Under the pieces are notes generated by a model that was given only the letters and a program-made list of their open reading frames with translations, was not told the DNA's origin and did not search any database. Both the position numbers and the translations under genes were made by a program. Positions 24,595 through 35,418 of a stretch of 64,000 bases of DNA are shown here, in pieces. Position 1 is the stretch's first letter. Every line of letters starts with the position of its first letter. Origin of the DNA: Noviherbaspirillum massiliense JC206 (GTDB lineage: Bacteria > Pseudomonadota > Gammaproteobacteria > Burkholderiales > Burkholderiaceae_D); the NCBI RefSeq assembly GCF_000312045.1, contig NZ_HE978634.1:2869875-2933874 (forward strand), in the 5' to 3' direction.

Positions 24595-25311
24595 ATGGCA
24601 AATATTCTGGTAGTCGATGACGAGATGGGCATCCGTGAGTTGCTCTCGGAAATTCTGGGAGACGAAGGGCATGTCGTGGCTACGGCGGAAAACGCACAGC
24701 AGGCGCGCGAAATCCGCGCCACCAGCACGCCGGAACTGGTGCTGCTCGATATCTGGATGCCGGACACCGATGGCGTCACACTGCTGAAGGAATGGCAGCG
24801 CGATGGATTGCTGACCATGCCAGTGATCATGATGTCAGGCCACGCCACCATCGACACGGCGGTTGAAGCCACGCGCATCGGCGCCCTCAACTTCCTGGAA
24901 AAACCGATCGCCCTGCAAAAGCTGTTGAAAGCGGTTCAGCAAGCCTTGACCCGTAGCCAGGAACCGGTAAGGCCGCCGCAATTCCATGCACGCCCGGTGG
25001 TAGCTCCCAAGCCGGAGCAGGCCGCTTCGCAAGCGGGCTCCCTGACGGCCTCCCCTGCTCCCGTGTTGCACGGCAATGCAGCCGTCGCCCCTGCCCTGGC
25101 GCCGGAACCGCAATTGTTCGGCCTGTCCTTCGACATGCCCCTGCGTGAAGCGCGCGATGCGTTCGAGCGGGCCTATTTCGAACACCATCTGGTGCGTGAA
25201 GGCGGCAGCATGACACGGGTAGCGGAAAGAACGGGACTGGAACGCACCCACCTGTACCGCAAGCTCAAGCAACTGGGCGTTGAACCGGCAAAGGTGGCCA
25301 AGAAGGGGTGA
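24595..25311 (+). CDS. NtrX-like response regulator lacking the AAA+ domain (REC + Fis HTH)
   Basis: A 238-residue regulator. The receiver domain (1-120) has DDE at 8-10, the phosphorylated Asp in VLLDIWMPDTDG, Thr/Ser and Lys switch residues in IMMSGHATID and NFLEKPI. An Ala/Pro-rich linker (about 120-180) follows, then a Fis-type helix-turn-helix (EGGSMTRVAERTGLERTHLY). Classical NtrX has a central AAA+ sigma-54 activation domain, absent here, so this protein cannot activate sigma-54 polymerase in the usual way. Paired with the NtrY-like kinase upstream; the stop codon overlaps the next gene (GTGA). Confidence 0.92.
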   Translation: MANILVVDDEMGIRELLSEILGDEGHVVATAENAQQAREIRATSTPELVLLDIWMPDTDGVTLLKEWQRDGLLTMPVIMMSGHATIDTAVEATRIGALNFLEKPIALQKLLKAVQQALTRSQEPVRPPQFHARPVVAPKPEQAASQAGSLTASPAPVLHGNAAVAPALAPEPQLFGLSFDMPLREARDAFERAYFEHHLVREGGSMTRVAERTGLERTHLYRKLKQLGVEPAKVAKKG

Positions 25312-25670
25312 CGCTTACCACCTTGGTCAGCGGCGCCGGTGCTGCCGCGCGTGAAGCCTGGATTGCCGACAGCATTGATCCGTCCGTCCCCACCACCATC
25401 ATCCTGGAAGGATTGCCCGATGGGTCGACCCGGCTTGATGCACTCGCCGCTTCGCCCACGGTGCAGATTCATCGAATAGCGCCGGGCTGCCTGTGCTGCA
25501 CAGGAAACCTGACCATGCGCGTGACACTGAATCGTGTCCTGCGCAATTCTCCGCAGCGCCTCTTCATTAGCCTCGCAACCGCCGGCCATCTGGACCGCAT
25601 CCGCGATACTCTCCTGCAGCCACCGTATGACAGTTTGCTGAGCCTGACTCAGGACACCCAGCTGTCGTAG
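25308..25670 (+). CDS. CobW/COG0523-like protein with degenerate P-loop
   Basis: A 120-residue protein starting at a GTG that overlaps the regulator stop codon. The order of elements matches the N-terminal half of CobW-type GTPases: a Walker-A-like strand LTTLVSGAGAAAREAWIADS, then the metal-binding CxCC motif in APGCLCCTGNLTMRVTLNRV, then RLFISLATAGHLDRIRDTLL. The Walker A Lys-Thr/Ser pair is missing and the C-terminal domain is absent, so GTP hydrolysis is doubtful. It may be a small metal-binding relative or a decayed gene; the intact frame and coupling favour a real protein. Confidence 0.7.
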   Translation: MTLTTLVSGAGAAAREAWIADSIDPSVPTTIILEGLPDGSTRLDALAASPTVQIHRIAPGCLCCTGNLTMRVTLNRVLRNSPQRLFISLATAGHLDRIRDTLLQPPYDSLLSLTQDTQLS

Positions 25671-27063: not shown

Positions 27064-27433
27064 TGGCAGGCACGGACATCCCTGCAAGCAGCATTTCCTC
27101 TATGCTTTTGATCACAAGCACCGTCATGAAATGGGCCGTTTGACGCAGCACAAACGGAAGTTTGGTTCCCTCAAATCCCAAATCTGCAGCATTGTTCGGG
27201 TATCCAAAAGGCGGTAATCTGTTTTCGCATTTCGGGCCGTAGATGAAGGCGCACTTCCATGGAGTGCCCCATGCAGCAAAGGCCCCGCGAAACCGAATCA
27301 GACGCCGGAGGTATTTCCGTAAATGACCACGATGGCGAACTGAGGAAGCCATCGCAACTGAAGACGAGTGGGCATTTGCATGTCATCCTTTGCAGCCTTC
27401 GGTGGCCAAGAATACCAAGAAGGATATTTGAAA
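27064..27433. other. 370-bp intergenic stretch, no gene recognised
   Basis: Only short uncharacteristic frames occur on either strand. The region must hold the promoter of the sigma-54-type regulator at 27434, but no clear consensus could be picked out. Confidence 0.5.
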
Positions 27434-28876
27434 ATGCTATACGTCACCAATTCGGCGCCGATGAACCAGACCGTTCTGGTTCCGCGCATTTCACCCCACA
27501 ATGACCAAACCTCCACCTATTCAGCCGCACTCAGAGAACATGGCCTGAACCTGACAGAGTGCGCAACGCCCGCAGCTGCTTACCACCTGGCACGGGATGG
27601 TTGCCGTGTCGGCCTGCTGATCCTGACGCAGGAAGCGGAGCTGGACCGGATTGCCGCATGGGAGCCGTTCATCCGCAGCCAAAGCCTGTCCTGGGTGGGG
27701 CTGATCTCGCGCGAAATTATTTCCAGACCGCGAGTGCGCGCCTTTGTCAGCGAGCACCTCTTCAATTTCATCACCATCCCGGCCGAACTAGAGCATATTT
27801 CACTGACCTTGCGCCACGCATGGGGCATGGCATTCATGCGCGATGAGCACGGCATAGGCACACAGGACTCGCCGGAGTTCGATGCCGACTTGATGATGGT
27901 CGGCAAGACTGCGCAGATGCATGCGGTACGGACGCAGATCCGGAAGGTGGCCCGTACCGATGCGTCTGTGCTGATTGCCGGACCATCGGGCACCGGCAAG
28001 GAACTGGCGGCACTGTCCATACACCGCCAGTCAGCACGCAAGAATGCGCCTTTCGTTGTCGTCAATTGCGGCGCCATCGCGCCGCAACTGTTCCAGTCCG
28101 AATTGTTCGGCTATGAAAAAGGCGCTTTCACCGGCGCCCATCAGCGCAAGATCGGCCGCATCGAAGCCGCCCAAGGCGGAACGCTCTTCCTCGACGAAAT
28201 AGGCGACATGCCATTCGACATGCAGGTCAACCTGCTGCGCTTCCTGCAGGAGAAAACCATCGAGCGCGTCGGCGGTACCGAGCCTATTCCCATCGATGTG
28301 CGTGTCATTGCCGCCACCCACGTCGATCTGGCAGAAGCGGTGAGGCAGGGGCGCTTCCGCGAGGACTTGTATTACCGGATCAATGTGGTGTGCATCACGC
28401 TTCCGCCGCTGGCCGAGCGCGGGGCGGATATCGAAGACATCGCGAAGCATTACTTCTACAAGTTCGCGCCGATGCATAACCGGAGCCTGCGCGGCTTTTC
28501 CCGCGCCGCCATGGAAGCAATGATGAGCCATTCCTGGCCCGGCAATATCCGGGAACTGGTCAACCGTGTGCAGCGCGCCACCGTGATGGCGGAAGGCCGC
28601 TTCATCCAGCCGGAAGACCTCGGCTTCGAGCGCGGCATCGACGATGCCCCGACCCTGTCCCTGGAAAATGCGCGTGCCGATGCGGAACGCATGATGATCC
28701 GCCGCGCCCTGTCGCAGTCACGCAACCAGATCTCGCGCGCGGCGTCACTGCTGGGCGTGTCGCGCGTCACGCTGTACCGCCTGATCGACAAATACAATAT
28801 CCGGCCGGATCTGCCGTCCGGCGCCGGGGCCTCGCTGCTCAGCAATGCGAAACCGGATCTCAAAGTCCACAAGTGA
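27434..28876 (+). CDS. VpsR-like sigma-54-dependent Fis-family regulator
   Basis: A 480-residue enhancer-binding-type protein. Residues 1-135 are a divergent receiver-like domain without the usual Asp pocket, as in VpsR. The AAA+ domain has Walker A IAGPSGTGKELAALSIH, the sigma-54 contact loop ELFGYEKGAFTGAHQ, Walker B GGTLFLDEIGDMP, and the arginine finger region. The C-terminal Fis helix-turn-helix is NQISRAASLLGVSRVTLYRL. VpsR relatives control biofilm matrix genes, some in response to c-di-GMP. The ATG at 27434 has GAAGGA ten bases ahead; two in-frame upstream ATGs lack sites. It stands next to the secretion gene cluster, but a regulatory link is only inferred. Confidence 0.88.
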   Translation: MLYVTNSAPMNQTVLVPRISPHNDQTSTYSAALREHGLNLTECATPAAAYHLARDGCRVGLLILTQEAELDRIAAWEPFIRSQSLSWVGLISREIISRPRVRAFVSEHLFNFITIPAELEHISLTLRHAWGMAFMRDEHGIGTQDSPEFDADLMMVGKTAQMHAVRTQIRKVARTDASVLIAGPSGTGKELAALSIHRQSARKNAPFVVVNCGAIAPQLFQSELFGYEKGAFTGAHQRKIGRIEAAQGGTLFLDEIGDMPFDMQVNLLRFLQEKTIERVGGTEPIPIDVRVIAATHVDLAEAVRQGRFREDLYYRINVVCITLPPLAERGADIEDIAKHYFYKFAPMHNRSLRGFSRAAMEAMMSHSWPGNIRELVNRVQRATVMAEGRFIQPEDLGFERGIDDAPTLSLENARADAERMMIRRALSQSRNQISRAASLLGVSRVTLYRLIDKYNIRPDLPSGAGASLLSNAKPDLKVHK

Positions 28877-29100: not shown

Positions 29101-30300
29101 ATGGAATGGCAGATGAGGCGCAGCGCACGGATCGTGCCGGCTACCCTGATCGGGTTGCTGCTGGCCGCGCAGGCAGCAGAAAGTCCGGCACAGGAACGAG
29201 ACGTGGAATTGCGCGAAAGGCTGGCGCAAAGCGAAGCCAAGGCTGCGGCCCTGCAGCAGAGGCTGGAAGAACTGGAGCGGCGGGTCCAGGCGCTGGGAGC
29301 AGCGGCACCGGTTGTGGCGCCTCCCGCTGCGGTGCGCCCTGCGGTGAATGCGCAGGCAGCGCCTCCACCATCCGCATCGCCTGCGCAGGCTCCGGCGCCC
29401 TCGAGCAGCGGCCGTACCGCTGCGGCGCGCAGTGCTCCCGGCACCTTCGAAGTCGATGAAGAAGCCGCGCAGCGCGCGCTTGAACGCACGCTCACCCAGA
29501 CTGGTGCACTGCTGCTGCCGGTCGGGACGGTGGAAGCGACACCGAGCTTCACCTACAGGCGCTTCGAGCAGACCAATCCAGCCCTGGTATCCGATCCATC
29601 CGGCACCGTGGTGCTCGGCAACCAGCTAAACCGAAGGAATGAATACACGGCGGCGCTGGAACTGAGGGCGGGCTTGCCGTACAACTCCCAGCTGGAACTG
29701 GTGCTGCCATACAGCCATGTGCACACCTCTCAGGTGACACCCACGGTATCCGGACCGGCCGTCGACCGGACCGACAGCGCCAGCGGGACGGGAGACGTCA
29801 CGCTTGGCTTCGCCAAGACGCTGATGCGCGAGAGCGGATGGAAGCCGGATCTCATTGGTCGCCTGACCTATAACTTCGGCAATGGCGATCGCCAGAGTGG
29901 CGGGGTCAGCCTCAATGGCGGATTCCGCCAGCTGACTGCAGAAGTGGTCGCCCTCAAGCGTCAGGACCCGCTGGCCTTTGTCGGCACTGCCTTCTATGGA
30001 AAGGCGTTTGAAGAGGACAGGATCGACCCGGGCAATTCAGCCGGTTTCTCGCTGGCGGCATTGCTTGCAGCGAGTCCCGCAACATCCCTGCAGCTTGGCT
30101 TTTCCCAAATCTATCGGCAGAAACAGGAAATCGGTGGAGTTCGCCTGCCGGGAACGGACCAGAGTTACGGAATCATGACTCTGGGCGCTTCATCGGTCCT
30201 CTCGCGCGACCTGACACTGGTAACGCAGTTCGGCATCGGCTTGGGCAACGATGCGCCGAAGTACAGCTTTACCATTTCGCTGCCGATTCTTTTCAGGTAG
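29101..30300 (+). CDS. FapF-like outer-membrane transporter (coiled coil + beta-barrel)
   Basis: A 399-residue protein. Residues 1-30 form a signal peptide (PATLIGLLLAAQAAESPAQ), 31-66 a strong heptad coiled coil (LRERLAQSEAKAAALQQRLE, then ELERRVQAL), 67-118 an Ala/Pro-rich linker, and 120-399 a beta-barrel that ends KYSFTISLPILFR. The barrel opens with RALERTLTQTGALLLPVGTV. This order (coiled coil, linker, plug-like helix, ~12-14-strand barrel) is that of FapF, the trimeric pore that secretes Pseudomonas functional amyloid. Convergent with the small secreted-protein genes; a terminator separates them. An alternative start is the ATG at 29113. Homology to FapF is by architecture, not proven by alignment. 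Confidence 0.75.
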   Translation: MEWQMRRSARIVPATLIGLLLAAQAAESPAQERDVELRERLAQSEAKAAALQQRLEELERRVQALGAAAPVVAPPAAVRPAVNAQAAPPPSASPAQAPAPSSSGRTAAARSAPGTFEVDEEAAQRALERTLTQTGALLLPVGTVEATPSFTYRRFEQTNPALVSDPSGTVVLGNQLNRRNEYTAALELRAGLPYNSQLELVLPYSHVHTSQVTPTVSGPAVDRTDSASGTGDVTLGFAKTLMRESGWKPDLIGRLTYNFGNGDRQSGGVSLNGGFRQLTAEVVALKRQDPLAFVGTAFYGKAFEEDRIDPGNSAGFSLAALLAASPATSLQLGFSQIYRQKQEIGGVRLPGTDQSYGIMTLGASSVLSRDLTLVTQFGIGLGNDAPKYSFTISLPILFR

Positions 30301-30357
30301 CGTGCAAGCGAGTGCATCTGCGGCGCGCTGACGGTCAATGTCAAGCAATCCATGCCG

Positions 30358-30396
30358 CGCCCCATGCCCTCCTCTGCGTGGCCAGGACATGGGGCG
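30358..30396. terminator. Hairpin after the FapF-like gene
   Basis: A 9-bp perfect inverted repeat, CGCCCCATG and CATGGGGCG, with a 21-base loop. No T-run follows directly. It lies between convergent genes and probably helps stop transcription. Confidence 0.5.
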
Positions 30397-30403
30397 TCTT
30401 CCT

Positions 30404-30430
30404 AAGGGCGCGTGACCGGCGCCCCTTTTC
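30404..30430 (+). terminator. Intrinsic terminator of the FapF-like gene
   Basis: AAGGGCGC and GCGCCCCTT form a stem followed by TTTC on the plus strand, about 105 bp after the stop codon and just before the converging small-protein gene. Confidence 0.75.
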
Positions 30431-30441
30431 TTCGGCGCAGC

Positions 30442-30732
30442 TTACTGGCGTTGCCTGATGTATGAGAAGTTGCCGCTTACGATGTAGGCGGTGTTGTTGC
30501 CGCTATAGCCAAAGTTGCCGAGGGAGATCTGCGCGACCGTTACCGGTGACGCATTCACCTGGCCAACCAGGGCGAGATTGTTAAAGCTTAGGAACTGGCC
30601 TGCAGTGACGCCATCCATTTGGGCGGCCGTCAGTTGCATCGGCTCCGCGGTGGCCGGCTCGGCGGCAAACGCCAGGGACGACAGGGACAGTACAGGTGCG
30701 GCGACCAGGGTGGTGATCAGTGACTTTTTCAT
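30442..30732 (-). CDS. Small secreted protein 1: Sec signal + AG-type leader + curli-like tail
   Basis: A 96-residue protein. Residues 1-23 are a Sec signal peptide ending AFAA. Residues 34-45 read LTAAQMDGVTAG, which fits the double-glycine leader consensus (L at -12, T at -11, Q at -8, M at -7, V at -4, A-G at -2/-1). Cutting after Gly45 would free 51 residues: QFLSFNNLALVGQ, a VTVAQI strand, and the terminal GNNTAYIVSGNFSYIRQRQ, which resembles a curli repeat. AAGGAG seven bases ahead of the ATG at 30732 sets the start. It is nearly identical in plan to proteins 2 and 3 and lies 188 bp downstream of protein 2. Predicted substrate of the C39 peptidase. Confidence 0.85.
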   Translation of the reverse strand: MKKSLITTLVAAPVLSLSSLAFAAEPATAEPMQLTAAQMDGVTAGQFLSFNNLALVGQVNASPVTVAQISLGNFGYSGNNTAYIVSGNFSYIRQRQ

Positions 30733-30920
30733 TTCCATGCTCCTTTGTTGGTAGGTTGAACGCTTTTTATTGCTGATACGCTTGCTGCAGCCAATCTCCA
30801 TCGCTTCGGCCGAGCACTGCGCAAAGCCTGACGCCGCTGATGCCTGACATCGCAAATCCGGCTTTGCCCATGCCTGCCTTGGCAATGGATCGATTGCTTG
30901 AACCTTATCGAGTACACGCA

Positions 30921-31211
30921 TTACTGCCTTTGCACGATCCTGGACCAGTTTCCGCTGAAGATAGCGGCTGTGTTATTGCCACTTCCGAAGCCGTTCAGGA
31001 CGCTGATCTGGACGACGGTGACCGGTGAAACATTCAACTGGAACAGCCCGGCGACGTTGTTGGAGCTCAGGATCTGCCCTGCCGTGACACTATCCATCTG
31101 TGCGGCGCTCAACTGCATCGGCTCTGCCGAAGCGGGCTCGGCGGCAAACGTCAGCGAAGACAATGACAGCAGAGGCACGCCAACCAGTGTGGCAATCGAT
31201 AGCTTCTTCAT
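30921..31211 (-). CDS. Small secreted protein 2: Sec signal + AG-type leader + curli-like tail
   Basis: A 96-residue paralogue. Signal peptide 1-23, leader LSAAQMDSVTAG at 34-45, then a 51-residue predicted mature peptide with VSPVTVVQI and the tail GNNTAAIFSGNWSRIVQRQ. The start has GGAG at a good distance (AGGAGAAGATGAAATG). Upstream are both shared boxes of this cluster (31299-31323 and 31351-31365), so it probably has its own promoter and may read through into protein 1. Function unknown; a fibre subunit or nucleator is inferred. Confidence 0.85.
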   Translation of the reverse strand: MKKLSIATLVGVPLLSLSSLTFAAEPASAEPMQLSAAQMDSVTAGQILSSNNVAGLFQLNVSPVTVVQISVLNGFGSGNNTAAIFSGNWSRIVQRQ

Positions 31212-31298
31212 TTCATCTTCTCCTAAACAAGCGATTTAAAGAGGTTCGAAACACGAATCGGAACTCGCATTTCCCTATCAATTTAAGCAGCCGCCCTT

Positions 31299-31323
31299 CG
31301 AAAAATAAGTATGAAATTTCGAT
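31299..31323 (-). promoter_or_regulatory. Conserved AT-rich box upstream of small protein 2
   Basis: Minus strand ATCGAAATTTCATAC followed by TTATTTTTCG. The same box precedes proteins 3 and 5, each about 90-105 bp before the start codon. It contains the palindrome GAAATTTC. It could be the core promoter or an operator. Confidence 0.65.
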
Positions 31324-31350
31324 GGGAGCCGGCTCATTTCCCGGCATTTC

Positions 31351-31365
31351 ATCCATTTTTTTGAT
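31351..31365 (-). promoter_or_regulatory. Putative LysR-type box (ATC-N9-GAT) upstream of small protein 2
   Basis: ATC-CATTTTTTT-GAT, a dyad of the T-N11-A type used by LysR regulators, 28 bp further upstream than the AT-rich box. Equivalent sites occur before proteins 3 and 5 and, imperfectly, before the lysR gene. Confidence 0.6.
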
Positions 31366-31617
31366 CCATTTCCGGTGTGAACGCATCGACTCTTGCGTAC
31401 GCTCACAAGATCGCCCGAAAATGTGTGCTGCACAAAGATTGACATGACCGGCCGGGCGGCAGTGCACCGAGGAACACGGCTCTGCTGCTGCTTCAACAGC
31501 GCGGCTCATGCTCTGCCGGCGTGCCGCCGGTCGCGCCAGATCGGAGGTCTTGCGCCCTCGATCGGAAGTGTGGCTCAGCGTGTTTCGTGATCAGTTGGTC
31601 AGCAGGATTGCTCCGCC

Positions 31618-31905
31618 TTACCGTTGCCTGATGACGGAGGAATTACCACTGAAGATAAAGGCGGTGTTGTTGCCGCTGCCGGCGAAGTTGAGCGCGGAGA
31701 TCTGGGCCACCGTCACCGGTGACAGATTCAATTGACCAACCAGGGCAACGTTATTGAAGCTCAGGAATTGGCCTGCGGTCACCCCGTCCATTTGCGCGGC
31801 GGTCAGCTGCATCGGCTCTGTCACAGCGGGTTCGGCGGCAAAAGCGATCGACGAGAGAGACAGTACGGGTGCTGCAACCAGGGTGGTGATAAGCGAATTT
31901 CTCAT
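31618..31905 (-). CDS. Small secreted protein 3: Sec signal + AG-type leader + curli-like tail
   Basis: A 95-residue near-copy of protein 1. Signal peptide 1-23 (ending AFAA), leader LTAAQMDGVTAG at 34-45, mature start QFLSFNNVALVGQL, then SPVTVAQISALN and the tail GNNTAFIFSGNSSVIRQR. Differences from protein 1 are concentrated in the mature part, as expected for a diverging duplicate. AAGGAG lies seven bases before the ATG at 31905; upstream in-frame codons are not needed. Both shared boxes are present upstream. Confidence 0.85.
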   Translation of the reverse strand: MRNSLITTLVAAPVLSLSSIAFAAEPAVTEPMQLTAAQMDGVTAGQFLSFNNVALVGQLNLSPVTVAQISALNFAGSGNNTAFIFSGNSSVIRQR

Positions 31906-32008
31906 TTCAATGCTCCTTGGTGAAAAGGTGAACATGCTCGGATGAACATGCTCCACAACGCGAACACGACAGGTGCTTCGCGCCTTTTCACTCTATGCAT
32001 CTGCATGG

Positions 32009-32033
32009 CAAAGAATAAGTATGGAATTTCGAT
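32009..32033 (-). promoter_or_regulatory. Conserved AT-rich box upstream of small protein 3
   Basis: Minus strand ATCGAAATTCCATAC followed by TTATTCTTTGCC, matching the boxes ahead of proteins 2 and 5 at 20 or more of 24 positions by eye. Confidence 0.65.
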
Positions 32034-32060
32034 GCCAGGCGCCCCGATCGCAGACGCTCT

Positions 32061-32075
32061 ATCGGATTTCTTGAT
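32061..32075 (-). promoter_or_regulatory. Putative LysR-type box (ATC-N9-GAT) upstream of small protein 3
   Basis: ATC-GGATTTCTT-GAT, same spacing as the other copies and about 28 bp beyond the AT-rich box. Confidence 0.55.
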
Positions 32076-32342
32076 TGATTGGCTGCACGCAAAGCCGCCC
32101 GCGAAAGGAACAGGGAGGGAAGCGAAGTCGGGCTGTTTCGTGATTCTGTTCCGCCAGCCTGTATTGTCATTGCCCGTATGCAGACTGTCCGGGGACGCAT
32201 GCCGGAACTTGCCTGTTCAGGCACGACTGCAGCCTGCTTGTGGAGGATGATGGCTTGGCGGTGACTGCCGCACCGCCGGACAGCTGGTCCTGCATGCGCC
32301 CCGCCTCGCGAGGGCGCTGCATGCGGATCCGCCCTGGCGGAA

Positions 32343-32798
32343 TCAGGGCCTGGTCATTGAATAAATCTGGACCGAGGAAGCGCCGTTGCTGCGGACAAAG
32401 GCGTAGTTGCTGCCACCGGAGTTGAACTGCTGGATTTGCAAGGACTCGCCTGGCCGCAATTGATAAGTAGTGATCGTTTCGCCCGGCCGTACCTGGTAAG
32501 TGGTGACCGCTCCGCTTTTGGCAGACTGCTGAAGCACTGCAAGTTCGTTGGCAAGGGCTTTCTTGATGGATGACAGCTGGTCGGATGTCAGGGGCAGCCA
32601 GCCGCTGGCAAGAAGGCTGGTTGTTCCAGGGGGAGTGATCTTCAGCATGTCGAGGAGGTTGGCGAAAAATGACTGCGAGCCTGCCGTCACGCGGTCCATA
32701 TCGGGTGCGTCCAGCAGGACGGGTTCGGCCGCCAGAGCCAGGGCCGAGCTTGCGAACAGGGACAAAATCCCCAGCCTGATCTTTGCATTCGCTTTCAT
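32343..32798 (-). CDS. Small secreted protein 4: divergent member with same leader
   Basis: A 151-residue member of the set. Signal peptide 1-24 (ending ALAA), leader LDAPDMDRVTAG at 29-40, then SQSFFANLLDMLKI. The mature part differs from the others: an amphipathic helical section (LTSDQLSSIKKALANELAVL), two tandem copies of a TTYQ[VL]RPGE[TS][IL] unit around residues 99-120, and a C-terminal SNYAFVRSNGASSVQIYS that keeps the Asn/Ser/Gln alternation. It lies 75 bp downstream of protein 5 and is probably cotranscribed with it. It may be a minor component, chaperone or nucleator; unknown. Confidence 0.8.
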   Translation of the reverse strand: MKANAKIRLGILSLFASSALALAAEPVLLDAPDMDRVTAGSQSFFANLLDMLKITPPGTTSLLASGWLPLTSDQLSSIKKALANELAVLQQSAKSGAVTTYQVRPGETITTYQLRPGESLQIQQFNSGGSNYAFVRSNGASSVQIYSMTRP

Positions 32799-32873
32799 TA
32801 CTGTTCCTTTCCAGCGCCTGCCGACAGGCAGGGCGGACTGTGTCCGCCCTTGGTGCCGCTATCGCGCAGACGC

Positions 32874-33230
32874 CTATTGACGGAAATTCAGGAAATTTCC
32901 GCTATAGACGATAGCCGTGTTGCCGTTTCCGATCTGGATGATGATCACGGGAGAGATGTTGATTTGCGTGATCTGGGCCAGCTTCAGAACGGATTTCAGG
33001 ATGTTGTTGGATAACGCCGCATTGCCACCACCATGTCGATCCGCGCGCGGCGGATCGAATACCGGTCCTCGCTGTCGGGCCGATCCCGCTGTGATGCCGT
33101 CCATCTCCTGTGCGCTCAACAGCATGGGCTCTGCGGTGCCAGTTTCCGAAGGAGCTGGCGCTGCAAATGCCATGGAAGAGAGCCCCAGCATGGGGATGGC
33201 CAACAGCGCGGTGACTAGCGTTTTTTTCAT
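32874..33230 (-). CDS. Small secreted protein 5: Sec signal + AG-type leader + curli-like tail
   Basis: A 118-residue protein. Signal peptide 1-24 (ending AFAA), leader LLSAQEMDGITAG at 37-49 (the only copy with Glu at -8, as in classical double-glycine leaders). Then comes an Arg/Pro/Gly-rich stretch (RGPVFDPPRADRHGGGN), an Ile-rich strand TQINISPVIIIQI and the tail GNGNTAIVYSGNFLNFRQ, which is the closest to a curli repeat. The ATG at 33230 has AGGAGA six bases upstream; an ATG two codons earlier is possible. First small gene after the C39 peptidase gene. Confidence 0.85.
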   Translation of the reverse strand: MKKTLVTALLAIPMLGLSSMAFAAPAPSETGTAEPMLLSAQEMDGITAGSARQRGPVFDPPRADRHGGGNAALSNNILKSVLKLAQITQINISPVIIIQIGNGNTAIVYSGNFLNFRQ

Positions 33231-33320
33231 AGGCATTCTCCTGTGTGAATAGGTTTGGAAAAACAGGAAATTGAACTCTTGGCGAACCCAGAGCGATTAA
33301 CAATTTAACAATTGTCCGCA

Positions 33321-33345
33321 AAAAAAATAAGTAACAAATTTCGAT
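33321..33345 (-). promoter_or_regulatory. Conserved AT-rich box upstream of small protein 5
   Basis: Minus strand ATCGAAATTTGTTAC followed by TTATTTTTTT, corresponding to the boxes ahead of proteins 2 and 3 and at the same distance (about 91 bp) from the start codon. Confidence 0.6.
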
Positions 33346-33373
33346 CATGAATACGCAAGTTCCCTGGGTATCC

Positions 33374-33388
33374 ATCCAATTTTTCGAT
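33374..33388 (-). promoter_or_regulatory. Putative LysR-type box (ATC-N9-GAT) upstream of small protein 5
   Basis: ATC-CAATTTTTC-GAT with the same spacing as the other two copies, 29 bp beyond the AT-rich box. Confidence 0.6.
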
Positions 33389-33624
33389 GCGATGCGACCT
33401 TGCGTGCGATCGGAAAAGCGGGAGACACGCGGGGATGACTTTTCTCGTTGATCGCCTTCCTGAAATGGATGGTGCGGCATGCAAACCATCACGCGCCATG
33501 AATAAAGTGCCGTATTCATGCGTCATCAGGTCGCAAGGGGCTGGCGGAAAAACTATGCACAGGCACGGCGCATATCGAAGATGACCACTGGCCTGTGCCT
33601 GCCGGGCTGCCCGTGGTTCATACC

Positions 33625-34302
33625 TCAGCGCAACATCACAAAGTCCTGTCCCTGTGGCGCCAGCTGATTGGGTGGCGGAACATCATCACGCCGCTGCACG
33701 GTAAATCCGATATGCCCGAGAGACGGGTAATCAATCCATTTTTCCGTGAACTCATCCACCCGCATGGTGCGATTGCCCCAGGCGGGGTCGGCCAGCAGCA
33801 CGCGGTCGCCGCGCACGCCGCGGAAAATGACGAAGTGGTTGTAGCCATTGGTGTGGATGGGGACGATGATCGGCGCTTTCGCGACCAGATCCTTGAGCTG
33901 GAGCCTGCCATAGCCGTTGCCGAGATAGCCGCGGGAATCGGCATTGCGCTTCAGGTCCAGCAGGGAAAAGCCTTCCCGGCTCTGCACCAGTTGCGGATTC
34001 CGGATGTACTCTTCCCGCTTCATCAGTGCCACGGCCACTTCCTTCTCCGTGACATCCTCGCCATGCTGGTACCGCAGCAAGGTGGCGAGCGCCGCGGCGC
34101 CGCAGCTCAGGTCCCACTTCTGTATCACGACATTCTCGTGCCGCATCTCGAGAAGCGATTTGACAACCGGCTCGCCCGCCTCGGCGCCCCCTGCCAGCAG
34201 CAGCGCAGCGCAGGCCGCTGCGCGCAAGACACCGGTCAGCCTGCGATGCAGGCGCATCCCTTGCGTCCTGCCGTCTCCACTTCCCATTTGCCAGTTCTTC
34301 AT
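33625..34302 (-). CDS. Exported stand-alone C39 cysteine peptidase (FapD-like)
   Basis: A 225-residue protein. An N-terminal signal peptide (LRAAACAALLLAGGAEAG, residues 26-43) is followed by a peptidase C39 domain: oxyanion Gln61 and nucleophile Cys67 in QKWDLSCGAAALATLL, His156 in GYNHFVIFRG and Asp172 in LLADPAWGN. C39 domains cut after double-glycine-type leaders and are normally fused to an ABC exporter; here neither membrane helices nor an ATPase domain is present. The same stand-alone exported form is FapD of the Fap amyloid system. It lies between lysR and the small-protein genes, all on the minus strand. AGGAA precedes the chosen ATG; the ATG at 34257 is an alternative. Confidence 0.9.
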   Translation of the reverse strand: MKNWQMGSGDGRTQGMRLHRRLTGVLRAAACAALLLAGGAEAGEPVVKSLLEMRHENVVIQKWDLSCGAAALATLLRYQHGEDVTEKEVAVALMKREEYIRNPQLVQSREGFSLLDLKRNADSRGYLGNGYGRLQLKDLVAKAPIIVPIHTNGYNHFVIFRGVRGDRVLLADPAWGNRTMRVDEFTEKWIDYPSLGHIGFTVQRRDDVPPPNQLAPQGQDFVMLR

Positions 34303-34317
34303 TTCCTGTTCCCTTTT

Positions 34318-34356
34318 AAAAAATGCCTGTCCCGGGAAGTCCGCGCTGCCCGGGAC
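34318..34356 (-). terminator. Terminator-like hairpin between lysR and the C39 peptidase gene
   Basis: GTCCCGGG and CCCGGGAC form an 8-bp perfect stem, followed five bases later by TTTTTT on the minus strand. It may limit read-through from lysR into the peptidase gene. Confidence 0.65.
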
Positions 34357-34383
34357 GCCGGTTCTTGCATGCACCATGGAAGT

Positions 34384-35418
34384 TCAATGACAGGAATAGC
34401 TCTGCGAAAGGATTTCCCGGTCCGCGTCCGTGCCTGGCTCATCCGTGTCGCCGTCGGCGGCACCGCGCAGGATTTCCACGAGCCGGTTCGTCGCAGGATT
34501 GGCGGACCATGGGCGCGAATGAATGAGGTACAGAACCGTTTTATATTCGCGGCAGCCTGCGAGCGGCAAGCGCACCAGGCTTTCCTCATCCAGCCAGGAC
34601 TGGATGCGATGCGCCGGCAGCCAGGCGTACCCCAGCCCTTCCTGCACGGCTTGCACAACCGCATCAAGACTGTTCATGCTCCAGCGGACATAGTCGGGTC
34701 CGCCCTTGTCGCCCCTGTCGGACTCGTCGGCGTGACCGACATCGATCTGGATGAAGCGCGCGAGATCAGCGGCCGTCAATTCCCTCCCCATGCGCAGCAA
34801 GGGGTGATCCGGGTGGGCAACCGGAACATGTTCGACCTCGACCAGCGGTTCTCCCAGGAATCCCAGTGGCACGCGCTCACCGATCACCAGGTCCGCCACC
34901 TGCTTGCGCAACAGCTCTTCAGGCTGCGGCGCGGCGAGTATGCTCAGCTTCACATGGGCCGCACCCTTGCTGAGCAGGCTGAATTTGCGCAGCGAGCCCA
35001 TCAATAGCCGCGTGGGAAAATGATGATCGACGACCAGCCTGACCTCCCCGGCCCAGCCTTGCTCCATGGTCTTGGCAAAGGTTTCCAGCTCGATTGCTTC
35101 TTTCAGGACATGGCGCGAACGCTCCAGCAGGGCGTGGCCTTCCGTGGTCAGGATGGCCTTGCGCCCTTCTATCTTCAGCAACTGGACGCCCAGCTGCTCC
35201 TGCAGCTTGGCGATCGTGTAGCTGATTGCCGATTGGCTCAGATGGAGGAATTTCGCCGCTTCGGCAAATCCGCCGCAGTCGATCACGGCATGCAGGATCC
35301 GCCATTGCTTGAGGCTTACGCAGAGATTGGGAATGGTGCGGGGCCGGTAGTAATGCGATATCGGCGCTCCATCAAATACCATCGATTGTTCCAATGCTTG
35401 TTTTCCTGGTTGAGTCAT
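34384..35418 (-). CDS. LysR-family regulator of the secreted-protein cluster
   Basis: A 344-residue LysR regulator. The winged helix-turn-helix is preceded by an ~35-residue extension and contains GGFAEAAKFLHLSQSAISYT and LLKIEGRKAILTTEGHALLE. The effector-binding domain covers about 125-320. AGAGGG seven bases before the ATG supports the long start. It is upstream of the C39 gene on the same strand, and T-N11-A dyads recur ahead of the small-protein genes and about 320 bp ahead of this gene, so it is the natural candidate to control the set. The effector is unknown. Confidence 0.9.
   Translation of the reverse strand: MTQPGKQALEQSMVFDGAPISHYYRPRTIPNLCVSLKQWRILHAVIDCGGFAEAAKFLHLSQSAISYTIAKLQEQLGVQLLKIEGRKAILTTEGHALLERSRHVLKEAIELETFAKTMEQGWAGEVRLVVDHHFPTRLLMGSLRKFSLLSKGAAHVKLSILAAPQPEELLRKQVADLVIGERVPLGFLGEPLVEVEHVPVAHPDHPLLRMGRELTAADLARFIQIDVGHADESDRGDKGGPDYVRWSMNSLDAVVQAVQEGLGYAWLPAHRIQSWLDEESLVRLPLAGCREYKTVLYLIHSRPWSANPATNRLVEILRGAADGDTDEPGTDADREILSQSYSCH

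Follow-up and report, generated by a model that had tools for sequence, protein, structure and literature searches.

Within positions 29101..35418 of the 64,000-nt stretch of DNA analysed here (the window), a FapF-like pore is encoded together with its own C39 peptidase and five short secreted proteins that carry a common leader tag. We read the locus as a two-cut export system for biofilm-matrix proteins, with a probability of roughly 0.7. The parts named in a first-pass annotation were all located in this interval, in the order barrel gene (+), five small genes (-), C39 gene (-) and LysR gene (-). Four elements were absent from that annotation: the leader register, a repeated promoter-like site, a sigma54-type activator, and a second C39/barrel locus in the source genome. 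Signal peptides were assessed by eye and by regular expression.

27368..28876, +, sigma54-type activator, 502 aa (Pfam Sigma54_activat 3.3e-72, HTH_8, VpsR 3.5e-07; N-terminal domain weakly VpsR-like)
29101..30300, +, FapF-type outer-membrane pore, 399 aa (predicted: helix at 30-68, then a linker, a plug-like helix at 120-133 and a barrel at 144-398)
30442..30732, -, substrate 1, 96 aa, predicted mature part 51 aa, signal-like N-terminus, leader LTAAQMDGVTAG
30598..30633, -, C39 leader (-12 to -1) of substrate 1, by leader register
30921..31211, -, substrate 2, 96 aa, predicted mature part 51 aa, signal-like N-terminus, leader LSAAQMDSVTAG
31077..31112, -, C39 leader of substrate 2, by leader register
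31304..31323, -, promoter-like site ATCGAAATTTCATACTTATT, upstream of substrate 2, repeated-site match
31618..31905, -, substrate 3, 95 aa, predicted mature part 50 aa, signal-like N-terminus, leader LTAAQMDGVTAG
31771..31806, -, C39 leader of substrate 3, by leader register
32014..32033, -, promoter-like site upstream of substrate 3, repeated-site match
32343..32798, -, substrate 4, 151 aa, predicted mature part 111 aa and different, signal-like N-terminus, leader LDAPDMDRVTAG
32679..32714, -, C39 leader of substrate 4, by leader register
32874..33230, -, substrate 5, 118 aa, predicted mature part 69 aa, signal-like N-terminus, leader LSAQEMDGITAG
33084..33119, -, C39 leader of substrate 5, by leader register
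33326..33345, -, promoter-like site upstream of substrate 5, repeated-site match
33625..34302, -, C39 peptidase, FapD/FilB-like, 225 aa, signal-like N-terminus (Pfam Peptidase_C39 5.5e-15)
34384..35418, -, LysR-type regulator, 344 aa (Pfam LysR_substrate 1e-25)

A common leader on the five substrates

All five substrates fit a double-glycine leader, with hydrophobic residues at -12 and -7 and small residues at -2 and -1. Their consensus, L(-12)xxx(Q/E/D)(-8)M(-7)Dx(V/I)(-4)TA(-2)G(-1), agrees in register with the published one, given in the accessible part of PMC6959990 as L(-12)xxxE(-8)L(-7)xxxxGG. As far as sequence can indicate, the register supports the leader processing proposed in the first-pass annotation. 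MDx(V/I)(T/S)AG, searched as a codon pattern with M as ATG, occurred 6 times in the 4.19-Mb genome and 0 times in the backward control. Five of these occurrences were the substrate genes of the window, and the sixth lay in a 519-aa protein that we take to be NusA.

A strict leader expression retrieved 163 ORFs in the forward and 0 in the reversed direction. Among 160 ORFs whose N-terminus has a hydrophobic stretch, 159 were hydrophobic at both -12 and -7; these ORFs were chosen by D-x-(V/I)-(T/S)-A-G alone, which fixes -6 and -4 to -1, and some of the leaders are near copies of each other and hence not independent.

Since this register equals that of double-glycine peptides, and loci hold several short, variable paralogues, the small proteins could be antibacterial, microcin-like peptides, with a bacteriocin leader behind a Sec signal and many varied cargos. 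We consider this improbable: no immunity-like gene was apparent on reading the window cluster, mature lengths among the sampled substrates reach 106, 121 and 155 aa, and a promoter-like site is shared with exopolysaccharide genes (see below).

Pore and peptidase

The barrel outer-membrane protein of the first-pass annotation is predicted to have the expected architecture, with barrel strands from residue 144. Its predicted barrel structure, plug-like helix included, matched the FapF fold, so that the structural match on which that annotation depended was found; the candidate counterpart of the N-terminal periplasmic coiled coil of the Fap trimer, the long predicted helix 30-68, falls outside the FapF-aligned range. 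By sequence the barrel scored 42.7 bits against the NCBIfam FapF equivalog (cut-off 700), and the FilC score in the window was 15.5 bits (cut-off 630), both below cut-off.

The C39 peptidase is stand-alone, as had been claimed, and is not fused to an ABC transporter. Its predicted catalytic residues Q61, C67, H156 and D172 were invariant in 12 aligned homologues. It matched NCBIfam FilB (2.8e-29; 102.3 bits, cut-off 475) with a score slightly above that for FapD (4.3e-28; 98.1 bits, cut-off 330), both below cut-off; the FapD equivalog cut-off was passed by 0 of 369 class genomes. Alternatively, the peptidase might act on the barrel and open its plug rather than cut the small proteins, the leader then being a docking signal only. 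Cleavage of FapF is raised as a possibility in the accessible part of PMC5557850. This arrangement is unlikely in our judgement, as a cleavable-type leader is kept before very different mature parts and the catalytic residues are conserved throughout the 12 homologues.

In a C39 tree, a 99/92 split separated the window C39 from the rows of Fap and Fil; the bootstrap had not settled, and the 80 named loci had been retrieved by C39, which biases the set towards C39s near that of the window. The Fap/Fil side also held L140 and one row labelled 'VTAGtype', a label assigned by retrieval and not by leader presence (L081_12256, the second C39 of that locus). ORFs above 420 aa were left out, as were the C39s of L041-L052, most of which, though not L043 or L047, share their contigs with named loci. 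This tree, and the lack of any match of the five small proteins to FapB, FapC or FapE at E<=1 in NCBIfam, which has such models, support the view that the system is related to Fap and distinct from it.

Properties of the substrates

The five small proteins had been described as single-repeat paralogues. Paralogy holds for their signal and leader, and not for the mature part of the 151-aa protein, which is longer and different; the single-repeat description fits the other four loosely. No match to NCBIfam FilA was obtained among the five, and no further repeat-rich ORF was seen on reading the window cluster. AlphaFold2 supported no fold for the substrate (pLDDT 49.7, pTM 0.21).

The mature part of substrate 5 contains S-x5-Q-x-G-x2-N-x-A, which we take to be the exact curlin-type consensus. 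It was present in 1 of the 5 window substrates and, with two orthologues, in 3 of 24 substrates, where shuffles gave 0.015 on average. A looser expression, devised after the sequences had been viewed, matched 17 of 24 against 1.2 in shuffles. Pfam Curlin_rpt matched two of the 24 (17.5 and 9.9 bits), both below the cut-off of 20.7. The curli-like part of the earlier proposal therefore keeps one exact motif and a weak link, and we dropped curli homology as a main claim.

The locus could nevertheless encode a functional amyloid in the strict sense, comparable to Fap or curli but with short subunits, whose mature parts polymerise into cross-beta fibres. This is a special case of matrix export, so its odds overlap with those of the main reading, and we give it slightly under an even chance. 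The FapF/FapD type of machinery, the enrichment of the exact motif, the composition of the short set (D+E 0.9%, N+Q 18%) and the 17.5-bit score, obtained for the L061 counterpart of substrate 5, all favour it. That score nonetheless stays under the cut-off, the looser expression was composed after the fact, and mature parts outside this family mostly lack such a repeat on reading.

Distribution across genomes and loci

Substrate-profile matches below 1e-6 were found in 10 of 245 family genomes, identical to the 10 with a best C39 match below 1e-80; six of them had contributed profile rows, which leaves four independent. Five further genomes gave a weak single match (between 4.9e-6 and 5.6e-4). 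Among them, G021, G043 and G120 had no C39 match, and in G135 the match sits just before the C39 gene. Widespread occurrence of the small genes without C39, which would have counted against the first-pass annotation, was thus not seen in this survey.

Linkage was assessed in those named loci, 41 in all, whose C39 was strong and had 3.5 kb of sequence to either side. A barrel lay within 3.5 kb of the C39 in 41/41 and a leader ORF in 33/41 (none in 8/41); the leader ORF was missing from the whole locus in 5/41, among them L125, which has a VAAG variant. Loci with a weaker C39 had a leader ORF in 1 of 5 cases, and the leader expression found none in the 11 loci L050-L060, where L053 has a VAGG variant.

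All 16 fap-like loci held at least one ORF in the leader register (26 of the 755 ORFs in the forward direction and 2 in the reversed), adjoining the C39 gene in 15; the fap-like label came from a FapD search, with model checks on L180 and L193 only. In L180 the C39 neighbour is a FapE homologue (NCBIfam, 6.6e-33) and a FapC match is also present (6.1e-53), both below cut-off. Two neighbours in L193 matched no NCBIfam model at 0.01, so loci like it are perhaps not genuine fap operons. For L191, the leader-register ORF picked by the script is a different one from that adjoining the C39 gene. The source genome has a second C39/barrel locus, Fil-like, on another contig (FilB 1.1e-68, FilC 6.6e-87, FilA 7.5e-07, all below cut-off).

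Regulation

The promoter-like site had 3 matches in the window against 0.02 expected, with none directly upstream of substrates 1 and 4; substrate 4 starts 75 bp past the end of substrate 5 and may therefore share its transcript. With a sigma70 scan, 1 site was found where 1.9 were expected. The exact site occurred in 8 of 245 family genomes (backward control 0), six with the substrate cluster; in the two without it, the site lay beside Wzc-like genes. Exopolysaccharide genes and no fewer than three of the five substrate genes have the site in common, so the exopolysaccharide matrix or the cell surface is where the products most likely act.

The sigma54-type activator, a possible regulator, is encoded next to the barrel gene, as is a homologue in three related genomes (L041-L043, two of which are those of L061 and L062); none was seen beside the barrel in L046. 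This activator and the LysR-type protein are both candidate binders of the promoter-like site, which does not resemble the sigma54 promoter motif. The LysR gene, present as previously annotated, adjoins the C39 gene in the window and in close relatives.

Proposed mechanism and significance

In the two-cut reading, the small proteins would enter the periplasm via Sec and lose their signal peptide. Judging from the register and gene linkage, the exposed leader would then be bound by the periplasmic C39 and cut after AG, and the unfolded mature chain would exit through the FapF-type pore, a transport role suggested by FapF and the predicted fold. Amyloid-like fibre assembly of the mature products is plausible; as mature parts are highly divergent across taxa, one common final structure should not be assumed.

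More broadly, we lean towards a widespread periplasmic C39/FapF-type secretion branch, whose highly diverse matrix proteins would be generally tagged for export by a double-glycine-type leader lying behind a Sec signal. In Fap this tag would survive on FapE and perhaps FapA. No earlier description of this branch was found in the open-licence literature searched. The leader, present in 160 ORFs of FapD-like peptidase loci and matching in register a leader-peptidase complex of known structure, gives a predicted cut site. It also predicts that nitrifiers, methanotrophs and other organisms have an unrecognised set of secreted proteins, one branch of which is tied to exopolysaccharide control.

Comparison with known systems

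Peptidase-containing ABC transporters share the C39 family and leader register with the window, whereas here the C39 stands alone with its own signal and the leader lies behind a signal peptide. With curli the window shares the curlin-type motif of substrate 5, which has one repeat only, unlike CsgA, and the Pfam model stays below cut-off. The window barrel scored higher to FapF than to COG4313 outer-membrane channels, for which the accessible part of PMC6173800 says that a C39 partner was never reported. Fil, a putative pilus system (FilA, the C39 FilB, and FilC), has the slightly closer peptidase by score, but the window proteins fall far under the FilB and FilC cut-offs, the small proteins lack a FilA match, and the window C39 lies on the opposite side of the tree split from both Fil and Fap.

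With Fap of Pseudomonas, the window has in common the pore fold with its plug-like helix, a C39 with a signal and intact catalytic residues, and close gene spacing. It differs in that no FapB-, FapC- or FapE-like protein was found and in bearing the leader on all five exported proteins. According to available portions of earlier work, fapD and fapF homologues are adjacent in five more phyla (PMC6173800), and the FapD and FapF models match many proteins outside fap loci (PMC3792158). The same holds for reports that FapC secretion requires FapD activity and that complete N-terminal processing was seen for FapE alone (PMC5557850); what FapD acts on is described as unclear or undetermined, FapE and FapF being the suspects (PMC5557850, PMC6173800). 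In fap-like loci, proteins encoded next to the C39 gene carry the window leader register, one of them the FapE homologue. If the tag is truly on FapE, and perhaps FapA, the FapD target could be read from sequence, and the leader makes the FapD substrate question directly testable.

Organization of the locus

The first-pass annotation had listed a FapF-like pore, an exported C39 peptidase, a LysR regulator and five small substrates, and all of these parts are present within 29.1-35.4 kb of the window. The locus is best read as a FapD/FapF-type secretion system whose short cargo proteins share a tag and probably belong to the matrix.

Features of the locus
27368-28876, sigma54-type activator, directly upstream of the barrel gene
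29101-30300, plus strand, barrel gene (predicted outer-membrane pore), opposed to the minus-strand genes
29.1-35.4 kb region, minus strand, five small genes (substrates 1-5), C39 gene and LysR gene, facing the barrel gene

Residues Q61, C67, H156 and D172 of the C39 peptidase, which we take to be catalytic, were unchanged in 12 of 12 aligned homologues. Elsewhere in the window, a short ORF (25308-25670) has a GCLCC motif and resembles a truncated CobW-type protein.

Leader register of the substrates

Each substrate has a signal-like N-terminus followed by L-x-x-x-(Q/D/E)-M-D-x-(V/I)-T-A-G. The MDx(V/I)(T/S)AG codon pattern occurs six times in the JC206 genome (backward control, 0 matches); five copies are the substrate genes, and the sixth lies within a NusA-like gene. 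For substrates of ABC-type C39 peptidases, PMC6959990 describes the leader as L(-12)xxxE(-8)L(-7)xxxxG(-2)G(-1). In the window and 80 named loci, leaders were picked by one anchor, D-x-(V/I)-(T/S)-A-G, where it followed a hydrophobic stretch. Positions -12 and -7 were both hydrophobic in 159 of 160 leaders, with L at -12 in 99%; the anchor itself fixes -6 and -4 to -1, and some of the 160 are close copies.

Distribution of C39, barrel and leader genes

The named loci are the best 80 of 156 stretches encoding relatives in a C39-alignment search of genome contigs. These 80 came from nitrifiers, methanotrophs, purple sulfur bacteria, Rhodospirillales, Granulosicoccaceae, two Acidobacteria and others, the five closest being Oxalobacteraceae. 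Forty-six had 3.5 kb on each side of the C39 gene. A barrel gene lay within that distance in all 41 with a strong C39 match and a leader ORF in 33 (36 counting the whole locus); the five weaker loci had 5/5 and 1/5, respectively. With no condition on the flanks, 53 of 73 loci had an ORF matching the strict leader expression at 3.5 kb or less. At loci with C39 below 1e-40, the strict expression found 163 ORFs (145 within 3.5 kb) and, on reversed proteins, 0. Mature parts were diverse, with abundant A, G, S and T; 115 of 154 had no Cys.

Among 245 family genomes, 80 had a C39 match at 1e-10 or better and fifteen a substrate-profile match at 0.001. The ten with a substrate profile below 1e-6 were the same ten with C39 below 1e-80, and six of them had contributed rows to the profile.

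Two C39/barrel pairs (L050 9493-11201 and L051 9142-10880) adjoin a gene for a protein of roughly 755 aa with apparent TPR repeats; no leader ORF was found at either. In other Oxalobacteraceae the pair is adjoined by another cargo type (L057 4224-8845, L058 10786-12318, L059 579-1076): large Gly/Ala/Asn-rich secreted proteins and, in L059, a small protein with DEKLEQMRGG.

A promoter-like site shared with exopolysaccharide genes

The site ATCGAAATT(T/C)NNTACTTATT occurs three times in the window (0.02 expected), upstream of substrates 2, 3 and 5; the direct upstream regions of substrates 1 and 4 are without it. Allowing two mismatches, the JC206 genome had seven sites and no backward match: these three, one upstream of a glycosyltransferase gene, and three inside 17 kb on another contig, C2. 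The cluster around the C2 sites has members of the Pfam families Wzc, Polysacc_synt_2, Polysacc_synt_3 and sugar dehydrogenase. One C2 site is upstream of a Wzc-like gene and one of a Polysacc_synt_2 gene; the third, an exact copy, is followed after about 0.5 kb by the gene of a 438-aa protein (L204 8165-9481) for which a Pfam search gave no match.

In relatives, the site was upstream of substrate genes (L061-L065), of Wzc-like genes (G151, G162), of a Polysacc_synt_2-like gene (G151) and of a sugar-dehydrogenase-like gene (G128). In G184, of the same genus as JC206, sites were located among Wzc-, Polysacc_synt_2- and sugar-dehydrogenase-like genes. Eight genomes bearing the cluster were searched at up to one mismatch, and the site was present in 7 and not found in G215; the sole site of G162 is at exopolysaccharide genes, not at the substrate cluster. 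The exact site occurred in 8 of 245 family genomes, six with the substrate cluster and two with the site beside Wzc-like genes. The consensus of 29 sites was ATCGAAATTTcaTACTTATTTTT, then TAnAnTG about 17 bases on.

Amyloid character of the substrates

S-x5-Q-x-G-x2-N-x-A, our rendering of the curlin motif, was found in substrate 5 and two orthologues (3/24, versus 0.015 in shuffles). The Pfam curlin model scored at best 17.5 bits on substrates and orthologues, under its cut-off, and a substrate structure model was too weak for use. We therefore put amyloid substrates at slightly under even odds.

Comparison with the Fil and Fap systems

The window C39 resembles FilB about as much as FapD. In a tree of 104 C39 domains labelled by mode of retrieval, it fell in a 78-row set separate from 26 rows comprising 16/16 Fap-labelled, 8/8 Fil/other and two other rows (support 99/92, bootstrap not settled). 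A second, Fil-like C39/barrel pair occurs in the JC206 genome (L004 3919-10791; C2, about 840-847 kb), scoring 1.1e-68 for FilB, 6.6e-87 for FilC and 7.5e-07 for FilA (a 165-aa protein). Its small proteins bear MTPIADEGLSQVSGQDG, in which the register is legible (I at -12, L at -7, V at -4, G at -2).

Of the 369 genomes in a class-wide FapD search, 49 matched at 1e-10 and none passed the FapD cut-off. Each of 16 loci fetched from these had at least one ORF in the leader register (26 of 755 ORFs fitted it, against 2 when the proteins were reversed). In 15 of 16, such an ORF adjoins the C39 gene, the position of FapE. At L180 this neighbour is a FapE homologue (6.6e-33), with FapC also in the locus (6.1e-53); at L193 the two neighbours searched had no NCBIfam match. 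At L191 the ORF beside C39 reads VSETKLDDMRGG but fell outside the script's filter. PMC5557850 describes FapD activity as essential, its target as unclear, and complete N-terminal processing as seen for FapE alone; PMC12822426 states that FapE and FapF are thought to be processed by FapD. The main value of the leader-tagged locus is that the question of the FapD target becomes testable. The locus varies an already known secretion type.
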